Under the pieces are notes generated by a model. That model worked only from the letters and a program-made list of their open reading frames with translations. It made no database searches and was not told the DNA's origin. Shown here piece after piece: positions 2,701-29,541 of a stretch of 64,000 bases of DNA; position 1 is the first letter of the stretch; every line of letters starts with the position of its first letter. The stretch is taken from assembly GCA_009996675.1 (NCBI GenBank), contig JAACZQ010000002.1:50882-114881 (forward strand), given 5' to 3'. The position numbers and the translations under genes were made by a program. The DNA is from Chitinophagaceae bacterium. GTDB lineage: Bacteria; Bacteroidota; Bacteroidia; Chitinophagales; Chitinophagaceae.

Positions 2701-4605
2701 ATGACACGGGAAGAGGCCTATAAGGTGCTTATTGACACCGTTACGAATAATATCAAGCACGTTGATTATAAACGTGTAACCGATCTGGCTGATGATTACA
2801 GCATATACATTACCGGTGCCGGAATCGACAAAAAGCTGAAACGGTTCAATCCACGAGAGGATGAGGAAATGTTTAAGCAACGTAAAAACCTTACAATTGC
2901 CATAACTCCCGCAATTGCGTCTTCAATCAAAAGGCCGTTTAATAAAGTCCCCAGAACCCCACCAGTTACAAAAAAAGTCTCTGCCAAGGATAGAAATAAT
3001 GAGCAGGCAGTGGCTGAAATTCAGGAGCGTATCAATTCATTCTATGGTGGCGATGCGAATGTTGGAGGCCTGGATTATTGGATTCAAAACCGGTTTGTAG
3101 ACCTTTCCTTTATAGATCCGAATAGCTGGATTGTTATTGAATTTGATCCATTCGATAGCAATATTGAGAAGGCATATCCACGGCCATTTGAGGTTACATC
3201 TAAACAGGCTGTCAACTTTTCAATCCTTAACAACAAGGTCCAGTGGCTGGTTGTAGAGACTGAAATCACCTATCCAACCAAAAAAGATGGGCTGATCGAT
3301 GTTGCAAATGGTATTGTGCCGAATACCCAATCGTTAAAGCAGAATAAAGGTAAAAAGTTCACGATATATGCTGACAATGACGCAGTAACGCTAACTCAAA
3401 CCAGCAAGGATGATAACGACAGGATTCTTGCCATACCAGGTGAGCAATTGATCAATATTGAGGGCAAGGGCACATTCATCGTCAACTTTTATGAAACTAA
3501 AACAGAATCATGCCCGGCTTTCCGGGTGGGCTATATCCCGGATGTGCAGACACAAGGGCGCACATATGTCAACCCGTTTCATGATGCCCTATGCCATATC
3601 GAAAAATCGGTAAAAACTGTCAGTGAGTTTGACCTGGCCACTTGCCTGCATACCTTCCCGCAGAAGGTAGTTCGCATTACAAAATCATGTCAGGGAAATG
3701 GTACGCAGAAATGTAAGGGGGGCAAGCTCACAGACGGAACAACATGCCCGACCTGTAAAGGGACAGGCAAGCCAATTCACACTTCCGGGCAGGATGTGGT
3801 TGAGGTGGCGATGCCTGAGACAAAAGAGGATTATGTTCCGCTGTCTGATTTTATTCATTACGTTGACACACCGGTGGAGCTGCTTAAGTTCCAGAAGGAG
3901 CTTACTGACGCAGTAGAAATCAAGTGTCACCAAACGGTATTCAATTCAACAGCGCTCCTTAGAAAGCCGAATGGTGGACAGCAGATAGATCCAACGGCTA
4001 CTGAGGTAAACAACGACATGGAAAGCGTTTACGATACACTTTCTCCGTTTGGCGAGAAAGTTTCAAGCGTATGGACCATTGTTGTGCAGTTTATTGCCAT
4101 TCTAACAGACAATAAGGACAAGGTGAGTATTCTGCACCGCTTCCCATCAAACTTTAAACTGAAAACCCGTACCGATCTGTATGTAGAAAGGAAAACACTA
4201 AAGGATGCGGGGTCTCCACCATTCGTAATGGATGCTGTCGATGACGAGCTGGCGCAGGATATCTATGCGGATGATGCAGATAGTCTGCTGCAATACCGCG
4301 TAAAGAAGGAGCATTTCCCTTTCCCGGGTAAATCGCCAGAGGATATTCAGTTCCTGCTGTCAGCAAGTACTACGCTGAAAAAGACGAAAATTCTGTATAC
4401 ATATTTCGATCAGATATTCACCGAGCTGCAACGCGAGAGTCTGGCCGCTAACAACGATTTCTATCTGCTGAAGCCGGCTGAGAGGCAAACGAAGATTGAT
4501 GAGAAAGTTAAAGGCATTTTGGACGAGCTCAGCAATGAAACTCAAACAGCCTTTCCTTTACATGCTATCCCTTTAAACTCGCCTGATAAAACTGAGGTAG
4601 CCTAA
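2701..4605 (+). CDS. Portal protein with an inserted DnaJ-like zinc motif
   Basis: A 634-residue protein between TerL and the MuF-like protein, the fixed position of the portal, the dodecameric ring at the capsid vertex through which DNA enters and leaves. The length is at the high end for portals. Residues 330-356 hold C330-x-G-x-G, C338-x-G-G and C349-x2-C352-x-G-x-G, the spacing of half a DnaJ-type zinc finger, so one bound zinc is likely. No signal peptide or membrane segment is seen. The stop and the next start overlap by one base (TAATG), showing tight coupling. The portal call is from position, size and general character rather than a recognised motif. Confidence 0.8.
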   Translation: MTREEAYKVLIDTVTNNIKHVDYKRVTDLADDYSIYITGAGIDKKLKRFNPREDEEMFKQRKNLTIAITPAIASSIKRPFNKVPRTPPVTKKVSAKDRNNEQAVAEIQERINSFYGGDANVGGLDYWIQNRFVDLSFIDPNSWIVIEFDPFDSNIEKAYPRPFEVTSKQAVNFSILNNKVQWLVVETEITYPTKKDGLIDVANGIVPNTQSLKQNKGKKFTIYADNDAVTLTQTSKDDNDRILAIPGEQLINIEGKGTFIVNFYETKTESCPAFRVGYIPDVQTQGRTYVNPFHDALCHIEKSVKTVSEFDLATCLHTFPQKVVRITKSCQGNGTQKCKGGKLTDGTTCPTCKGTGKPIHTSGQDVVEVAMPETKEDYVPLSDFIHYVDTPVELLKFQKELTDAVEIKCHQTVFNSTALLRKPNGGQQIDPTATEVNNDMESVYDTLSPFGEKVSSVWTIVVQFIAILTDNKDKVSILHRFPSNFKLKTRTDLYVERKTLKDAGSPPFVMDAVDDELAQDIYADDADSLLQYRVKKEHFPFPGKSPEDIQFLLSASTTLKKTKILYTYFDQIFTELQRESLAANNDFYLLKPAERQTKIDEKVKGILDELSNETQTAFPLHAIPLNSPDKTEVA

Positions 4606-12840: not shown

Positions 12841-13013
12841 TCAAGCTCTGGAAAGATTGGGATGAGATATGGTATTCAATGGCTGATGGGAACATATCAC
12901 AGATGGAAACACTGAAAGGAACCGAGGAGAATGCATTTTATAACCTATTCGACCTGCATAAAAGGAGAATTGACCGCTTAAAAGCAAAGCATCATGGCAA
13001 TAAGCAAAGGTGA
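12714..13013 (+). CDS. -1 frame extension of tail chaperone (T-like part)
   Basis: An open -1 frame that overlaps the end of the chaperone gene and runs to 13013, ending 20 bases into the tape measure gene. The part after the upstream stop (about 58 residues, from I-R-I-I-K-L-W to K-Q-R) looks protein-like: charged, helical, with W-K-D-W-D-E. It has no good start of its own except an internal ATG at 12879. This is the known arrangement of the GT fusion. The stretch from 12714 to 12840 is less protein-like in this frame, so the precise shift point remains open. Confidence 0.5.
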   Translation, partial: RICGRFSQNRSRKLQECHAKHFGSSKRAKGKDDRTEYTHIRIIKLWKDWDEIWYSMADGNISQMETLKGTEENAFYNLFDLHKRRIDRLKAKHHGNKQR

Positions 13014-16000
13014 ATATACGCTTCCGTTAGGTTTGGATGCTAACCCGGTCATCCAGGGGCTGAGGCAGACTAAATCGGGATTGGTTGAGGTGGCAGAGGC
13101 TGCCCAACAGAGTAATGCCTCAATGAAAGCAACATTTGAGGGGTTGAATAATGCGAACAAGGAAGCAACTTCATCCATTGTAAAGACCACTTCCGCGATT
13201 ACTCAGCAAGGGAAAGAACAGCAAACTGCCCTGAATCAATTCAAGGGGTATTATACACTACTCCAGGAGATAGCCGCGCAAAACCCCAAAAGCTTTTCAT
13301 CGGATACGCTAAAGCGGTATCAGGAGGCTATGGCGCAGATTTATCGATATGTTGGGAATATCGCAACCGCCAATACAGAAGCGTTTGATCCGGCTAAGAT
13401 CAAGGCTCTTGATTCAAGCCTTAAAAATGCGACCGGTGACCTTAATCAGTTCAAGACTATTCTTCAATTCATTAAAGAAAACCTGGGTGACCTAAATCTG
13501 TCAATTGGAGCACAAAAGCAACTGGGGGGCACTATCGATACTGTTTCTGGCTTATTGAATCAACAGCCAGATGAAAAGGCTCCTGCTCCAGTAATCCCTC
13601 CAGAATCAATTGATGTGCCTACTCAAAAGATCGTAAGCCTAAAGACTCAATTGAGAGCCATGAAGGCTGAATTAGGAACAATGGCTCAGGGAAGTCCTGA
13701 ATTCATAAAACTAGCAGCACAAGCCGCCGAAATTGAAGATAGGATTGGAGATATCAATGCACAGGTACGTCTATTAGCCAGCGACACAAGTTCTACCGAT
13801 GCACTGATCCAGGGTGCTCAAGGTATTGTTGGCGCATTTGTTGCCGCTCAAGGAGCAGTAGCTCTATTTGGTGATGACAACGAAGAGTTGCAACAGACCA
13901 TGGTAAAGCTTACAGCAGCCATGAGTGTATTACAGGGGGTTCAGCAGATAGGCCAACTAATCGATAAAAACAGTGCACTCAATGTTTTCCTTCTTAAAAC
14001 ACTGCGGCTACAGCAGGCTGAGGCTTCAGTGGCCACGGCTGTTGCTGAGACGGCCCAAGCCGGCGCGACAGTTGCGCTGGCCGCTGCGGAGGAAGGTGCA
14101 ACAGCTGCTACCTGGTCCCTTAATGCCGCGATGCTGGCGAATCCGGCCGGTGTAGTCCTTATAGCAATTGGGGCGCTAGTCGCCGCCATAGCCTATTTTG
14201 CCAGTAGTTCAGAAGATGCAGCCGAAGAGCAGAAGAAAGTAGCTGAGGCTATGAAGGAGGCACAGAATAATGCCAATGAGTTAGCTAAAGCATACACTAA
14301 AGTCTATTCGGATGCTGCAATCAATGCGGAAAAAGCAGTTTCTCTGGCTCAAGCTCAAGGAAAAAGCGAGGGAGAAATATATGTACTGAAACAAAAGGTA
14401 CTTTCCGCTAGAAAGCAGGAGGGGCTATCCATACTTGCTAATCTTGGCTTGACAAAACAAGATATTAGCTATAATGAAACTTTGTTGCAGGTTAGGCAAG
14501 AGCAGCTTCAGGTAATGCTGAACCAGGCTGTAGCTAATGGTGAACTTTCAAAAGATGATCAGAAAAAAGTTGAGGCATTAAAGGCTCAGATTGATGGCAT
14601 TAAAACAACCTTGAATGCAGCAAAAGAGGCCCAGAAGCAAATAGATGATGCTGAAGCTGAATCAAAAAATAACGCTGCTGCACGACAAAGGCAGCTATAT
14701 CTGGACAGCCTGAAGTCTGCTACGGCTCTTGCCGAAGCCAAAGCTGGACTAGCTGAAAAAGGAAGCCGGCAAGAGTTGAACATTCAAATTCAGGCAATTG
14801 AAGCCGCCAGGAAGCAAGCTTTGGCGGATGTAAATCTGACTGAGGGAGAGCGGTTTAAGATCAAGGCCGATGCGCTGAAAAAAATCGATGATTTGAATCG
14901 GCAATTCCGTGTCAATGCCATTAACAACGAAATTGAAGGTCAGAATATTCTGTTAAACTCAGCAAAAGAAGGCTCTAGGGAAGAGTTGAATGCGAAACTG
15001 GAAATACTAAAACTCCAGGCTGATACAGAACTGGAGCAGGAAGGCATTACCGACAACAAGATACTGGCCATCCGTTCCAAATTAGAAAAAGACTCTGCCG
15101 AACTGCGTAAAAAATACAATGCAGATGTAAGGATAAGTGCGGCAAACGCGCAGATCGATGACTTGAACGCATCTCTTACTCTGGTTAAGGAGCACAGTGC
15201 TGCGGAATTGGAGATTAAAAAACAGTTGATAGATCAACAACGACTGATTGATGTCGAGAATGCCCAGCAATCCATTAAAAGCGAAGCCGAATTAGATGCA
15301 AAACTGAAACAGATTGATGCTCAGGCAACCAAATCCAAACAGGATTTGGATAAACAATATCTCAAAAGTTATTTTGACAATAATAGGGAGATCCTTATTT
15401 CAGAGATCAACTTGCAGAATGCTATCCTAAAAGCAAAAATGGATAATCCTTTAGCAACCGATGAGGAGATATTTAAAGCTCAACAGCAGATCAGACAGAA
15501 TGAGCTTGATTCGATATCCGGGCAGCTTGATGACCTTGATTTTCTGTATGATATCGGAGTTGTTAATGAGGACGAGTATCAAAAGAAACTCAATGATTTG
15601 ATGGCCCAGGGAATTGCAAAACGGGCAGAACTGGCTAAAGCTGAAGTCGAGAATATCAAAAAATTTAACCTTGGAGCTACAATAATCAAGTCGCTGGGAT
15701 TAAACCCTAAAGATCCAGCCGTACAACAATTCATTAATGGATTCACAGGAGCCATATCAGGAGCGTATAGCAATCTAACGCAATTGTTTGAAAGCCAGGC
15801 CCAAGCTCAAATTTCTGCTATTCAGCGGGTTATTGATGCTTTGAATGATCAAATCAAAGAACAAGAAAGTAAAGTTAACGAGCAACGAAAATTGTCTGAA
15901 AAAGGCCTTTCGAATGATTTGAAGAATGAAGAGGCAAAATTGATGGATTTTAAGAAGAAACAACAAGAGCAAGTCACGGCTAAAGAAGCGGCTCAAAAAA

Positions 16001-16680
16001 AGTTGGAGGAGATCCGTAAACAAGAGGCGATTATTCAGTCCGCGTCTATCATTTCAGGCAACATAGAGACTGGTGTTAATATGATCAATGCTATGTCTAA
16101 AATTTTCAAGGCTCACGCGGGTATTCCATTTGTGGGTATTGCTCTGGCGGTTGGTTTCGGTGCACTAATGCTTTCATCTTTTCTGGCTATTAAGAATGCA
16201 ATATCAGCAGCAACATCGGACACTCCAAAATTTAGAAAGGGAGGAGGATTTTTGATTGATGGCCCTTCACATGAAAATGGCGGAGTCGGGCTTTATTCCA
16301 AAGGCAAAAAGATAGCTGAGTATGAGGGCAAGGAATATCTGTTTGCGGTTAATAAAGGGAGCAGCCAGAAGTATTTACCACTTCTTGAAGCGATAAATGC
16401 CGATAATAAAGCTGCTATTCTAAAGGAAGTATTAGGCGGTACACGTTTGCCAGATGCCTCTGTAAATGACACGATCAACACGCAACGAGAGGTGGATGAC
16501 CTGAAAGCGAAATATGCATTTTCTTTCGACAATCCGCATCTTGGTAGCATTGATGATAGATTGAGGCTTTTGGAAAGAATTGATGATAAATTGACCCCCG
16601 GTAAAACCGTTACGGACTATGGAGACTATGTTATCGAGCAGGACGGTAGCATTACCCGTAAAATATGGAAGAGGCGGTAA
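12994..16680 (+). CDS. Tape measure protein
   Basis: At 1,228 residues the longest phage gene here. It sets tail length and helps DNA cross the cell envelope. Long Ala/Gln/Lys/Glu helices with coiled-coil character cover about residues 30-270 and 410-1,040. Hydrophobic segments lie near residues 350-405 (Ala-rich, ending in I-A-I-G-A-L-V-A-A-I-A-Y-F) and 1,040-1,070, as in many tape measures. The C-terminal 150 residues are more globular. Its length fits a tail of very roughly 180 nm by the usual 1.5 Å per residue rule. No peptidoglycan hydrolase domain is obvious. Confidence 0.92.
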   Translation: MAISKGEYTLPLGLDANPVIQGLRQTKSGLVEVAEAAQQSNASMKATFEGLNNANKEATSSIVKTTSAITQQGKEQQTALNQFKGYYTLLQEIAAQNPKSFSSDTLKRYQEAMAQIYRYVGNIATANTEAFDPAKIKALDSSLKNATGDLNQFKTILQFIKENLGDLNLSIGAQKQLGGTIDTVSGLLNQQPDEKAPAPVIPPESIDVPTQKIVSLKTQLRAMKAELGTMAQGSPEFIKLAAQAAEIEDRIGDINAQVRLLASDTSSTDALIQGAQGIVGAFVAAQGAVALFGDDNEELQQTMVKLTAAMSVLQGVQQIGQLIDKNSALNVFLLKTLRLQQAEASVATAVAETAQAGATVALAAAEEGATAATWSLNAAMLANPAGVVLIAIGALVAAIAYFASSSEDAAEEQKKVAEAMKEAQNNANELAKAYTKVYSDAAINAEKAVSLAQAQGKSEGEIYVLKQKVLSARKQEGLSILANLGLTKQDISYNETLLQVRQEQLQVMLNQAVANGELSKDDQKKVEALKAQIDGIKTTLNAAKEAQKQIDDAEAESKNNAAARQRQLYLDSLKSATALAEAKAGLAEKGSRQELNIQIQAIEAARKQALADVNLTEGERFKIKADALKKIDDLNRQFRVNAINNEIEGQNILLNSAKEGSREELNAKLEILKLQADTELEQEGITDNKILAIRSKLEKDSAELRKKYNADVRISAANAQIDDLNASLTLVKEHSAAELEIKKQLIDQQRLIDVENAQQSIKSEAELDAKLKQIDAQATKSKQDLDKQYLKSYFDNNREILISEINLQNAILKAKMDNPLATDEEIFKAQQQIRQNELDSISGQLDDLDFLYDIGVVNEDEYQKKLNDLMAQGIAKRAELAKAEVENIKKFNLGATIIKSLGLNPKDPAVQQFINGFTGAISGAYSNLTQLFESQAQAQISAIQRVIDALNDQIKEQESKVNEQRKLSEKGLSNDLKNEEAKLMDFKKKQQEQVTAKEAAQKKLEEIRKQEAIIQSASIISGNIETGVNMINAMSKIFKAHAGIPFVGIALAVGFGALMLSSFLAIKNAISAATSDTPKFRKGGGFLIDGPSHENGGVGLYSKGKKIAEYEGKEYLFAVNKGSSQKYLPLLEAINADNKAAILKEVLGGTRLPDASVNDTINTQREVDDLKAKYAFSFDNPHLGSIDDRLRLLERIDDKLTPGKTVTDYGDYVIEQDGSITRKIWKRR

Positions 16681-25230: not shown

Positions 25231-25644
25231 ATGAAAAAAGTAATCATTCTGGCCATTATGGCCTTCTTTACAATCACTGCCGGCACTGCGCAAACCGCCG
25301 AAAAAGAGCCCGAAAGAACCAAGTTGCCTTACGTACAGGAAAAGGCTGCAAAACCGGAGAAACATAATACCGATACGCTGGTGGTGCCGCAGTCCGCCAA
25401 GTTCATCAAAGTGGGGGATAAGCTGATCCCGGTATCCGAACTGGCCAGCGCCGAGAAGATCCCGCTGTTCGTTCCCCTTGGCTGGATAATCGGCCAGTAT
25501 CAGTACCTGGATAATTCAACCGGAAGTGGCCTGACCAAAAAGCAAATCGAAGAGCTGCAGGGCCCACTGGAACCATACTACCGGTATTATCTCCAGGCCA
25601 TGCAGCAACAAAGGCAGGCAGCTGCGGAGAAACCCAAACAGTAA
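25231..25644 (+). CDS. Exported small phage protein
   Basis: A 137-residue protein with a Sec signal peptide (M-K-K-V ... A-G-T-A|Q at residues 17-21). The mature part has a charged Pro-rich segment, a short hydrophobic stretch (near 80-90) and a Gln/Ala-rich C-terminus. I do not recognise it. It follows the fibre genes and precedes the lysis genes, so it might be a fibre accessory, or a periplasmic factor for lysis or exclusion. Confidence 0.6.
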   Translation: MKKVIILAIMAFFTITAGTAQTAEKEPERTKLPYVQEKAAKPEKHNTDTLVVPQSAKFIKVGDKLIPVSELASAEKIPLFVPLGWIIGQYQYLDNSTGSGLTKKQIEELQGPLEPYYRYYLQAMQQQRQAAAEKPKQ

Positions 25645-25683: not shown

Positions 25684-25911
25684 ATGGAACATAATACACA
25701 ATACAATATTGCTGCGGCGGCTGGAGGTGCCATTGCTGCTGCAGGCAATAACCTGGTTAACCTTATTCAAGCGCCGGTTCGGTATACATACGCCATCGAT
25801 TGGGCTGAAACTTTCCAAATTGGATGGAAGGCCGCCGTTGGGGCCTTGGTTGGCCTGGGAGTTAAGTGGATATGGGATAAAATCTTCAATCGCAAAAAAC
25901 GAAAAAAATGA
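25684..25911 (+). CDS. Small membrane protein, holin candidate
   Basis: A 75-residue protein. One hydrophobic helix rich in Ala/Gly (about residues 8-30, weak) and a stronger one near 47-65 (A-A-V-G-A-L-V-G-L-G-V-K-W-I-W), then a strongly basic tail (N-R-K-K-R-K-K). The small size, membrane segments, charged C-terminus and position at the head of the lysis region fit a holin. It overlaps the next gene by 4 bases (ATGA). Confidence 0.5.
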   Translation: MEHNTQYNIAAAAGGAIAAAGNNLVNLIQAPVRYTYAIDWAETFQIGWKAAVGALVGLGVKWIWDKIFNRKKRKK

Positions 25912-26147
25912 TACAGCAAGTAATCGAGAACACTAAAAAACCAGCTCCGCGCTGGTTCAGAAAGACAAAACGAGCAGCTGAAATGCTGTCCGATACAGCC
26001 ATTGTAATGCTGATTTCAATGGGGTATGCAGAAAATAGCCTGGTTATGCTTTGGCTACGGGTAGGGCTTTCTGGCATATTGAACACCCTTGAAATGGTGC
26101 TTGCTAATGGCGAAGAATACACTAAAACCACCGACAATGCAAACTAA
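25908..26147 (+). CDS. Small phage protein in lysis region
   Basis: A 79-residue protein with a basic N-terminus (K-K-P-A-P-R-W-F-R-K) and two moderately hydrophobic helices (about 28-40 and 44-62). It might be a second holin-type or antiholin protein, or a soluble regulator; the hydrophobicity is borderline. It overlaps the gene before it by 4 bases and the spanin candidate by 11. Confidence 0.45.
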   Translation: MIQQVIENTKKPAPRWFRKTKRAAEMLSDTAIVMLISMGYAENSLVMLWLRVGLSGILNTLEMVLANGEEYTKTTDNAN

Positions 26148-26793
26148 AACTCAATCGACCATGGAGATAATATTGGGAAGGCGAACTGTTTTCCTGGTAT
26201 TATCTCTTACGATACTCTGCAGTTGCGGCATCGTGAATAAATCCAAACAGCGGACTTATTCCAGTGTGGACAGCTCCGCTACCCATGTCACCCGGTCCAC
26301 GGCTGACCAGGTGCAGGATAGTGCCAATAAGAAAGCCTACGAACAGGCCACAGAGAATACTGTAGCCGATGAATCCATTGGCCGGGTAGAAGTGGAGTTT
26401 GGGCAGGATTCGGTAAAACCAACAGGTCCGGTCGTAATCTCACGTGATAGCAGCGGGAATATGGTCATTGACCCTGGTGGCCGGCCGGTAAAAAAGGTCA
26501 CTGATACACGATCCGCCCAGAAGTCGGCGACAACTACCACAAAAAATACCGGACTGGATTCAACCCGGGTAAGCAAGATCCAGACAACCCAGAAAGTCGA
26601 TAGCCTGGCTTCCGCACTGAAAAAAGAGGTCCGTTCTGCGGAGAAAAAAGTGTTCCGATGGCAAGTGCCATGGTATGCCTGGCTGATACTGCCGGTTATC
26701 GGGCTGATCGCCTGGCGGTACCGGCTGTACCAGCGAAAGATCGATACGGCCACAAAAATCCCTTATTCATCACCCAATGACAATACTGCATGA
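26137..26793 (+). CDS. Lipoprotein with C-terminal TM: candidate unimolecular spanin
   Basis: A 218-residue protein from this ATG; an ATG at 26161 gives a more usual lipoprotein signal. The N-terminus has Arg-Arg, a hydrophobic core and L-C-S-C, where Cys30 is the likely lipidated residue. The mature part is a long, soluble Ser/Thr/Asp/Lys-rich stretch. The C-terminus has one transmembrane helix (about 175-193: W-Y-A-W-L-I-L-P-V-I-G-L-I-A-W) and a basic cytoplasmic tail. An outer-membrane lipoyl anchor plus an inner-membrane helix in one chain is the definition of a u-spanin, as in phage T1 gp11. It overlaps the endolysin candidate by 4 bases. Confidence 0.6.
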   Translation: MQTKTQSTMEIILGRRTVFLVLSLTILCSCGIVNKSKQRTYSSVDSSATHVTRSTADQVQDSANKKAYEQATENTVADESIGRVEVEFGQDSVKPTGPVVISRDSSGNMVIDPGGRPVKKVTDTRSAQKSATTTTKNTGLDSTRVSKIQTTQKVDSLASALKKEVRSAEKKVFRWQVPWYAWLILPVIGLIAWRYRLYQRKIDTATKIPYSSPNDNTA

Positions 26794-27380
26794 AAAATTT
26801 TTATCCGGAAAAGCCCACGGTGCCTTTCCAAAAATCAATGATTGAAATGGCTTTGATAATCGATGCCATTAAAAAGGCGCCATTCCCGGTTGAGGTAAAG
26901 CGGGCTGCGTATGTGGTGATTCGTAATGAATCATCCAATGGCCGTTCGGTGATCAATGGCAATAACCTATGCGGAGCCCAGGCCGATAGCGGCAGGTGGC
27001 CCCGGGCCTGGGATGCCAAAATCGCTGCTGTTACCTATAAGCGTGAGAATACGACCAATAAGGAGCGGATATTCCTTGTATTCGATAGCCTGGCCAGCGG
27101 GATAGCATTCGTGTGCGACCGGGTGCAGGCCAAAGGGATATTCATCGGTGAAAACGTGAACGGCCGATATTACAAAGGAGATGTTCGAACAGTAGAGCAG
27201 TTGGCGGATGCCTATGGCGATGAGTGGGTTCATGGCCGTGATGCCACACCGACCCCCACGGAAGTGCGCAATTTCACCAGCATGTATAATCAGGCGAAAG
27301 TGCTTTTCCCTGATGAAAATAAGGCGGAATCAGGTAATTCTACGGCGCAAAAATCAGGTATTAATACTGTAAAAAAGTGA
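26790..27380 (+). CDS. Candidate endolysin (lysozyme-like)
   Basis: A 196-residue soluble protein without signal peptide. The region R-N-E-S-S-N-G-R-S (E47) followed by N-N-L-C-G and Q-A-D-S-G-R-W (64-70) follows the glutamate-then-substrate-cleft pattern of lysozyme-fold glycosidases and resembles hydrolases found in Bacteroidota phages. E47 is the likely catalytic acid. C-terminal 20 residues are a disordered Lys/Ser tail. The place, directly coupled to the spanin candidate and after the holin candidate, supports lysis. Without a signal peptide it would need the holin to leave the cytoplasm. Confidence 0.65.
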   Translation: MKNFYPEKPTVPFQKSMIEMALIIDAIKKAPFPVEVKRAAYVVIRNESSNGRSVINGNNLCGAQADSGRWPRAWDAKIAAVTYKRENTTNKERIFLVFDSLASGIAFVCDRVQAKGIFIGENVNGRYYKGDVRTVEQLADAYGDEWVHGRDATPTPTEVRNFTSMYNQAKVLFPDENKAESGNSTAQKSGINTVKK

Positions 27381-28338: not shown

Positions 28339-29541
28339 TTATGAAAACGGGTTATTTACTTTTCTCAGACGTTCTTCTTGCCTTGCTTTTTCTCCCAAGG
28401 CGTAGTGATCCATTGTAATTACGGGGGTCGTGTGCCCGGCCATCTTGGAGGCTTCCTGGAGAGATAACAGTTCCGCTGTTTCATCCAGATTAGCATGCTT
28501 CAATGTGTACAGATCAACCTTAATTCCAAGGCCGCCATCTTTGTTATCAGCTTTTACTTCATCGTGCCATTTTCGGGTAAGGTAATCGCGCTTACAGGGT
28601 TCTTTCGCGGGCGTAAAGTCGATGCCGAACAGATATTCTCCTGGCCGGGCTTCATTGTAGAGACTTACCCACTCATCGTATACGGCATCTTTGATCGGGC
28701 GGTACACTTGACGAGAAGATCCTCCCTTTTTTATTGTTACAATAAAACTACGGCCTGGCAGGTCGACATGATCTTTCTGCATCCTTAACAATTCAATCTC
28801 TCTGGCGCCGGAATGAAAGAAAATATGAAGGAATCTCAAATATGCAGGATCCGGAGCTGTTTCGGTATAATGGTGCTCAACTTTCTGGCGAAGTTCTTTG
28901 ACCATGATAGGCCGTATTTTCTTTGGTAGTGCTTTTTTAGCCACTCCACTCGCTGGATTTACTTCGTGATAGTCAATCTGTTTGAAGAGCATCATCAAAT
29001 AGGCACGGTAATGATTATAAGATACTTCTGATAAATTACAGGCATCGAGAATAGCTTTTATGTGCTTTCGGCTGACATCTTTCAAGACAAGATAATCCCA
29101 ACGCATTTTTCGAATTGCGACTGTTACATACTTCAAGCAGCTCTTTACGTTTGCCGCAGTAGTTTTCGGAACACTCATGTTTTTTAAAGCCATCTCCATT
29201 GCAGTAATTAATGGAGTATTAGGGTCTACGACTGGGGTGTTATATGCGTCTATGCAATATTGTTTTGTAATCGGATTGAATCCATCAATCTGAAGGCGCT
29301 TCATCTCCATATTAATTAACTCCTCCGTTGCAGCCTTTCGATCAGTTGGAGTTTTAAATTCATTCATCCCCTTAACCATAACAAGTTTAGGAGATATCCG
29401 TCCTTTGTCATTACGGACCGATGGGTCATAAAATCGGTACCATATATACCAATCTCTTTTAGTAGATGCAGACGCTTTCTTCCAGTTAGTGGGAGTTACC
29501 TTCAGTTCGGTGCAATAGCAACCATTGGGCAGTGTAATCAT
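28339..29541 (-). CDS. int: Phage integrase, tyrosine recombinase
   Basis: A 400-residue protein of usual Bacteroidota phage integrase size: N-terminal arm-binding part (1-100), a SAM-like core-binding domain (about 105-205) and catalytic domain (215-400). Visible catalytic residues are R247 (G-A-R-E-I-E), a beta-hairpin Lys near 271, H349 (L-K-H), H370 (A-G-H-T-T) and the nucleophile Y380. The box II arginine expected three residues after H349 is Leu352 and no arginine is near. It points away from the tRNA-Arg 107 bases upstream, whose 3' part is the likely attachment site. It carries out insertion and excision of the prophage. Confidence 0.92.
   Translation of the reverse strand: MITLPNGCYCTELKVTPTNWKKASASTKRDWYIWYRFYDPSVRNDKGRISPKLVMVKGMNEFKTPTDRKAATEELINMEMKRLQIDGFNPITKQYCIDAYNTPVVDPNTPLITAMEMALKNMSVPKTTAANVKSCLKYVTVAIRKMRWDYLVLKDVSRKHIKAILDACNLSEVSYNHYRAYLMMLFKQIDYHEVNPASGVAKKALPKKIRPIMVKELRQKVEHHYTETAPDPAYLRFLHIFFHSGAREIELLRMQKDHVDLPGRSFIVTIKKGGSSRQVYRPIKDAVYDEWVSLYNEARPGEYLFGIDFTPAKEPCKRDYLTRKWHDEVKADNKDGGLGIKVDLYTLKHANLDETAELLSLQEASKMAGHTTPVITMDHYALGEKARQEERLRKVNNPFS

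Follow-up and report, generated by a model that had tools for sequence, protein, structure and literature searches.

The prophage and its lysis cassette

The window, by which we mean the whole 64,000-nucleotide stretch of Chitinophagaceae DNA that was analysed, carries a tailed prophage with genes for a terminase (1287-2672), a portal protein (2701-4605), a tape measure protein (12994-16680) and tail proteins. An integrase gene on the minus strand (28339-29541) is part of the same prophage. The genes considered here as a lysis cassette lie on the plus strand. At the start of the region is a gene for a 137-aa protein with a signal peptide and a possible Q-rule site, GTA/QTAE (25231-25644). Small secreted proteins whose signal peptide apparently ends before Gln (the Bacteroidetes 'Q rule') recur at the upstream cassette edge, in the window (25231-25644) as well as in loci L002 (574-927), L041 (2597-2872) and L045 (2271-2660).

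Two small proteins follow. The 75-aa product of 25684-25911 has a weak hydrophobic segment and is a possible holin or antiholin; it gave a weak match (0.014) to a PHROG of unknown function. The 79-aa membrane protein encoded by 25908-26147, directly upstream of the spanin gene, has hydrophobic segments and is the holin candidate. It matched no Pfam family and no PHROG in a meaningful way. In relatives G047 and L045, the cassette includes a PF05105 holin at an upstream position.

The candidate unimolecular spanin (u-spanin) is encoded by 26137-26793, and an endolysin candidate of 196 aa by 26790-27380. The latter matched no Pfam or PHROG family. Its AlphaFold2 model, based on 15 aligned sequences, had a pLDDT of 91.5. 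In Foldseek, the best matches of the model were to the FlgJ GH73 glycoside hydrolase (5dn5/5dn4; probability 0.99), and further matches were to another peptidoglycan hydrolase and to viral muramidase/glucosaminidase models. The similarity to FlgJ is remote, since TM values were 0.39-0.47 (5dn5). Residue E47 is invariant among the relatives of the endolysin candidate, and two of these (L057 and L059) have an N-terminal PG_binding_1 domain above the cut-off. On the strength of the predicted fold, the invariant E47 and the PG_binding_1 domain of relatives, we take 26790-27380 to encode an endolysin, a candidate of the GH73/FlgJ-like type. The original prediction, that the spanin gene overlaps an endolysin candidate by 4 bases, was correct, the endolysin being assigned by predicted fold.

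Features of the candidate u-spanin

The frame is open over 26137-26793 on the plus strand and specifies 218 aa counted from the ATG at 26137. The protein starts with MQTKTQSTMEIILGRRTVFLVLSLTILCSCGIVNKSKQR and ends with FRWQVPWYAWLILPVIGLIAWRYRLYQRKIDTATKIPYSSPNDNTA. Its last bases (ATGA, 26790-26793) contain the ATG of the downstream gene at 26790, and its 5' end overlaps the upstream gene (25908-26147) by 11 bases. Because other in-frame starts are present (TTG 26089, ATG 26107 and ATG 26161), the exact N-terminus and the length of the signal peptide are uncertain.

The signal-peptide h-region and the lipobox, TVFLVLSLTILCSC, lie at 26185-26226. The lipobox reads L-C-S-C30 and is preceded by the hydrophobic h-region. 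Either Cys28 or Cys30 had been proposed as the site of lipid modification. C30 (26224-26226) is the likely lipidation residue, since the sole sequence relative, from G047, reads S-S-C-G there; C28 has no equivalent in that protein and was rejected. The predicted mature N-terminus, CGIVNKSKQR, lacks Asp at +2, and none of its residues from +2 to +6 is acidic; it thus carries no acidic lipoprotein export signal (LES) as defined in PMC5080379. The basic, Asp-free +2 region after the lipobox predicts sorting to the outer membrane, facing the periplasm.

Residues 31-172 (26227-26652) form the predicted periplasmic part, a hydrophilic, low-complexity region of 142 residues that is rich in Ser, Thr and Lys and devoid of Cys. 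The predicted C-terminal transmembrane domain (TMD), WQVPWYAWLILPVIGLIAW, comprises residues 175-193 (26659-26715) and is followed by the basic tail RYRLYQRK and the conserved end IPYSSPND. The TMD contains two prolines and has a mean Kyte-Doolittle hydropathy of only 1.31 (usual cut-off 1.6), a low value explained by the presence of Trp, Tyr and Pro. The segment went undetected at a Kyte-Doolittle cut-off of 1.5, and the Wimley-White octanol scale, checked on the u-spanin gp11 of phage T1, was used instead. On that scale the segment scored 13.9, compared with 19.3 for T1 gp11. The predicted TMD is borderline by Kyte-Doolittle and strong by Wimley-White.

Specificity of the layout

We scanned for a topology in which a hydrophobic stretch leads into a lipobox, and a hydrophilic middle part is followed by a single C-terminal TMD. 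The window has 154 stop-to-stop frames that are 90 aa or longer, and a single one matched, the candidate u-spanin. The claim that one protein joins a lipoprotein signal, a hydrophilic periplasmic part and a C-terminal TMD with a basic tail was confirmed at the level of sequence. As controls, the same scan picked gp11 only, a tested u-spanin, from phage T1 (1/92 frames), and gene 49 only, which adjoins a GH19 lysin gene, from Flavobacterium phage 11b (1/53 frames). None of 5000 shuffles of the candidate u-spanin passed. A separate o-spanin/i-spanin pair in the same phage had been named as evidence against a u-spanin; no other lipobox ORF of at least 40 aa was found on the plus strand of 1-29700.

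Sequence relatives

The sole sequence relative found was in G047, a genome of the same genus (41% identity over 205 aa by blastp). The cassette there runs from a PF05105 holin (1.9e-11) through the spanin homologue to a different endolysin candidate, and the homologue overlaps both neighbouring genes by 4 bases. Conserved between the two proteins are the block TGPVVISxDSxGxxVIDPGGR in the periplasmic region, the juxtamembrane FRWQxPWYA and the tail IPYSSPND. The IPYSSPND C-terminus (26758-26793 in the window) is identical in G047, whereas over the remainder the two proteins share about 40% identity and the endolysins encoded downstream differ. The conserved end may possibly have a cytoplasmic function or serve as a translational coupling signal.

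Other searches gave no homologue. There was no tblastn match in the phage collection at E≤1, no homologue in the viral contigs searched with the candidate u-spanin or with alignment A1, and none in the genome contigs, which were covered by a pattern-based search of limited reach. Sequence searches of solved structures returned chance matches only. Weak profile matches in other genomes of the order were mostly to unrelated lipoproteins; only the L011 match turned out to come from a cassette. Residues 120-199, which include the TMD, matched the profile of PHROG_1804 ('Rz-like spanin') weakly (E=0.002). The G047 homologue does not reach PHROG_1804. The match lends weak support, and composition alone may explain it. 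Judged by sequence, the candidate u-spanin is a new family of a known kind within the collections searched.

Comparison with known spanins

Like the prototype u-spanin T1 gp11, the window protein has an N-terminal lipobox, a Cys-free hydrophilic periplasmic domain and a single C-terminal TMD with a basic tail, and both are encoded beside an endolysin gene and picked by the same scan. They differ in length (133 aa for gp11, 218 aa for the window protein) and in gene order: T1 has a pinholin and a SAR endolysin with the spanin last, whereas the order in the window is holin, spanin, endolysin. Blastp of the window protein against gp11 gave no match, and its identity falls short of the level of the gp11 family (at least 40% over 40% of the periplasmic domain). 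Its periplasmic part had no sequence similarity to any u-spanin of tested function. A beta-rich periplasmic domain is the pattern of the gp11 family and is specific to T1 rather than strictly defining for u-spanins.

Flavobacterium phage 11b has a host of the Bacteroidota, and its gene 49, adjacent to the gene of a GH19 endolysin, shares the layout. The gene 49 product is 154 aa long and, unlike in the window, the spanin gene follows the endolysin gene. The mature N-terminus CGSRKVERN of gene 49 resembles CGIVNKSKQ of the window protein, and similarity is confined to the signal and the first residues (E=0.004; hhalign probability 49%).

We take the phages of the phi13:2, phi12:1 and phi10:1 groups, 11b, FCL-2 and RAP44 to be Cellulophaga, Flavobacterium and Riemerella phages, and B40-8 to be a Bacteroides phage. 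The former are included among the u-spanin groups in Table 5 of Kongari et al. 2018 (PMC6139136), with 11b as a u-spanin singleton of SpaninDB. Further u-spanins were described in Cellulophaga phages Ingeline and Nekkels (PMC8776804). Likened by description, these Cellulophaga phage proteins are of the same kind and from the same phylum as the window protein (PMC6139136, PMC8776804). All 58 u-spanins of SpaninDB lack periplasmic Cys (PMC6139136), as does the window protein. The Bacteroidetes phages in the dataset of PMC12596118 'exclusively use USP', whereas SpaninDB places B40-8 among the two-component singletons (PMC6139136). The original prediction that Bacteroidota spanins are poorly described was thus largely wrong (PMC6139136, PMC8776804, PMC12596118): u-spanins are a known kind of protein and are common in Bacteroidota phages.

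Recurrence beside related endolysins

A search with the endolysin family of the window yielded 23 distinct loci by our count, the window included and near-identical contigs merged. The named genomes belong to Chitinophagaceae or Bacteroidetes. A gene for a lipoprotein with a C-terminal TMD lies near the endolysin gene in 14 of the 23 loci, and directly adjacent (gap -16 to +4) in 10. One of the loci counted, L043, was missed by the script and included by eye; a script match at L047:2312-2656 (score 5.3) was taken to be a false positive. In two loci (L042 and L052), a DUF6808 protein occupies the place of the spanin, and in the flanks examined of the remaining seven neither type of gene was found. 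Together with G047, the 14 loci show that the layout recurs in related prophages, where the original prediction suggested looking for it.

Blastp at E<1e-4 sorts the proteins in the spanin slot of these loci and of G047 into six groups, and each slot protein has a hydrophobic segment at its C-terminus. It is therefore the layout, not a common sequence, that has been kept or repeatedly acquired. The sharing of one layout by several unrelated sequence groups also means that topology and position can reveal the spanin slot where sequence similarity fails. In this way, unannotated spanins in Bacteroidota phages become findable and testable.

Interpretation of the candidate u-spanin

By topology and context, we propose that 26137-26793 encodes a unimolecular spanin, with a probability of about 0.85. 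The original reading of the gene as a u-spanin gains support from topology, position in the cassette, recurrence, the lack of a second lipobox ORF on the plus strand of 1-29700, the missing export signal and the lack of periplasmic Cys. Weighing against it are the Kyte-Doolittle value and the two prolines of the TMD, the low complexity of the periplasmic part and its dissimilarity to u-spanins of tested function, the single relative found, a gene order unlike that of T1, a holin candidate that no family model recognises, and the seven of 23 endolysin loci whose examined flanks had no spanin-type gene. We infer that the N-terminus is lipidated and anchored in the inner leaflet of the outer membrane and that the C-terminal helix is inserted in the inner membrane, such that the protein would tether the two membranes. 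The holin would release the neighbouring GH73-like endolysin, and the endolysin would cut the peptidoglycan. The tethers could then cluster and collapse, and the outer membrane would be fused or disrupted. The fusion step is taken from the published spanin model (PMC6139136), a paper which itself notes that physiological or biochemical data on the mode of action of u-spanins are lacking. For Chitinophagaceae prophages, the protein can serve as a well-supported reference u-spanin.

If the C-terminal segment were not a true TMD, the protein might be an o-spanin-like lipoprotein that works with a separate i-spanin in the inner membrane. The low Kyte-Doolittle mean of 1.31, the two prolines and the small membrane proteins encoded upstream (25684-26147) would fit such a pair. 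However, the Wimley-White score of 13.9 and the C-terminal hydrophobic segment of every slot protein argue for a TMD, and the upstream proteins, of 75-79 aa, lack the long coiled stretch that i-spanins have in the periplasm. We consider a two-component system quite unlikely. T1 Cor and other phage lipoproteins have roles of the superinfection-exclusion or lysogenic-conversion type, and a prophage envelope lipoprotein might merely sit in the late operon. Beyond the precedent of Cor, this explanation can draw on a match of one related slot protein to a superinfection-exclusion PHROG, at chance level (E=0.053). It is very unlikely given that the gene is on the strand of the endolysin gene and overlaps it by 4 bases, and that the layout is found right beside the endolysin in ten separate loci and, in G047, beside an endolysin candidate that is unrelated. 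In addition, exclusion lipoproteins are not known to have a C-terminal TMD. An antiholin-like regulator of the holin, acting at the inner membrane, would suit a gene placed between holin candidates and an endolysin; yet sorting to the outer membrane is predicted from the lipobox and its basic, Asp-free +2 region, and the length and periplasmic domain of the protein are unlike those of known antiholins, making this role highly improbable.

Other proteins in the spanin slot

Four slot proteins (L041:3345-4004, L045:3387-3998, L047:3441-3998 and L049:2809-3318) are lipoproteins with a C-terminal TMD and a conserved periplasmic PC(A/S)ND motif. They thus have a periplasmic Cys, in contrast to the no-Cys rule of SpaninDB u-spanins.

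Proteins with DUF6808 (PF20647) are encoded at L042:3264-3986, L052:3311-3988, L064:1492-2352 (minus strand), L065:1216-1668, L073:2377-3183, L074:2848-3327 and L076:2641-3183. Most have an N-terminal hydrophobic anchor, and their C-terminal hairpin ends mostly in Phe or Trp. In Bacteroidota phages their genes lie next to, or not far from, endolysin genes of five families: they neighbour Amidase_3 (L076), Phage_lysozyme (L065, L074), Amidase_2 (L073) and Glucosaminidase (L064) proteins, and in L042 and L052 they adjoin the endolysin family of the window, that is, in the u-spanin slot. The AlphaFold model of a DUF6808 protein was poor overall (pLDDT 55.6), with the last 30 residues forming a two-strand hairpin at about 80. 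Our literature search found no paper naming DUF6808. The slot comparison points to this domain, which has no assigned function and recurs next to endolysins of several unrelated families, as a candidate lysis protein, and it may be an alternative spanin.

A more general proposal, which we regard as rather doubtful, is that several unrelated proteins can replace one another in the spanin slot next to endolysins of Bacteroidota: u-spanins devoid of Cys, such as the window protein, the PC(A/S)ND type and DUF6808 as a spanin of inverted polarity, with its N-terminal anchor in the inner membrane. If so, the outer-membrane end of DUF6808 proteins would be a beta hairpin instead of a lipid. Against an inverted anchor, the L065 member has a signal-peptide-like start containing SSC, and the Cys after the hydrophobic stretch in several members means that the anchor could be a lipid. 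Likewise, in the displayed parts of three further DUF6808 loci (L072, L075 and L078), no endolysin was recognisable by eye.

The endolysin family of the window also occurs without a lipoprotein plus C-terminal TMD gene in the flanks examined, in L036, L040, L042 (5780-6979) and L060 (3995-4519). Near the endolysin gene of L036 and L042 there is a gene that looks sheath-like by eye, and the endolysin family there perhaps belongs to a different kind of particle.
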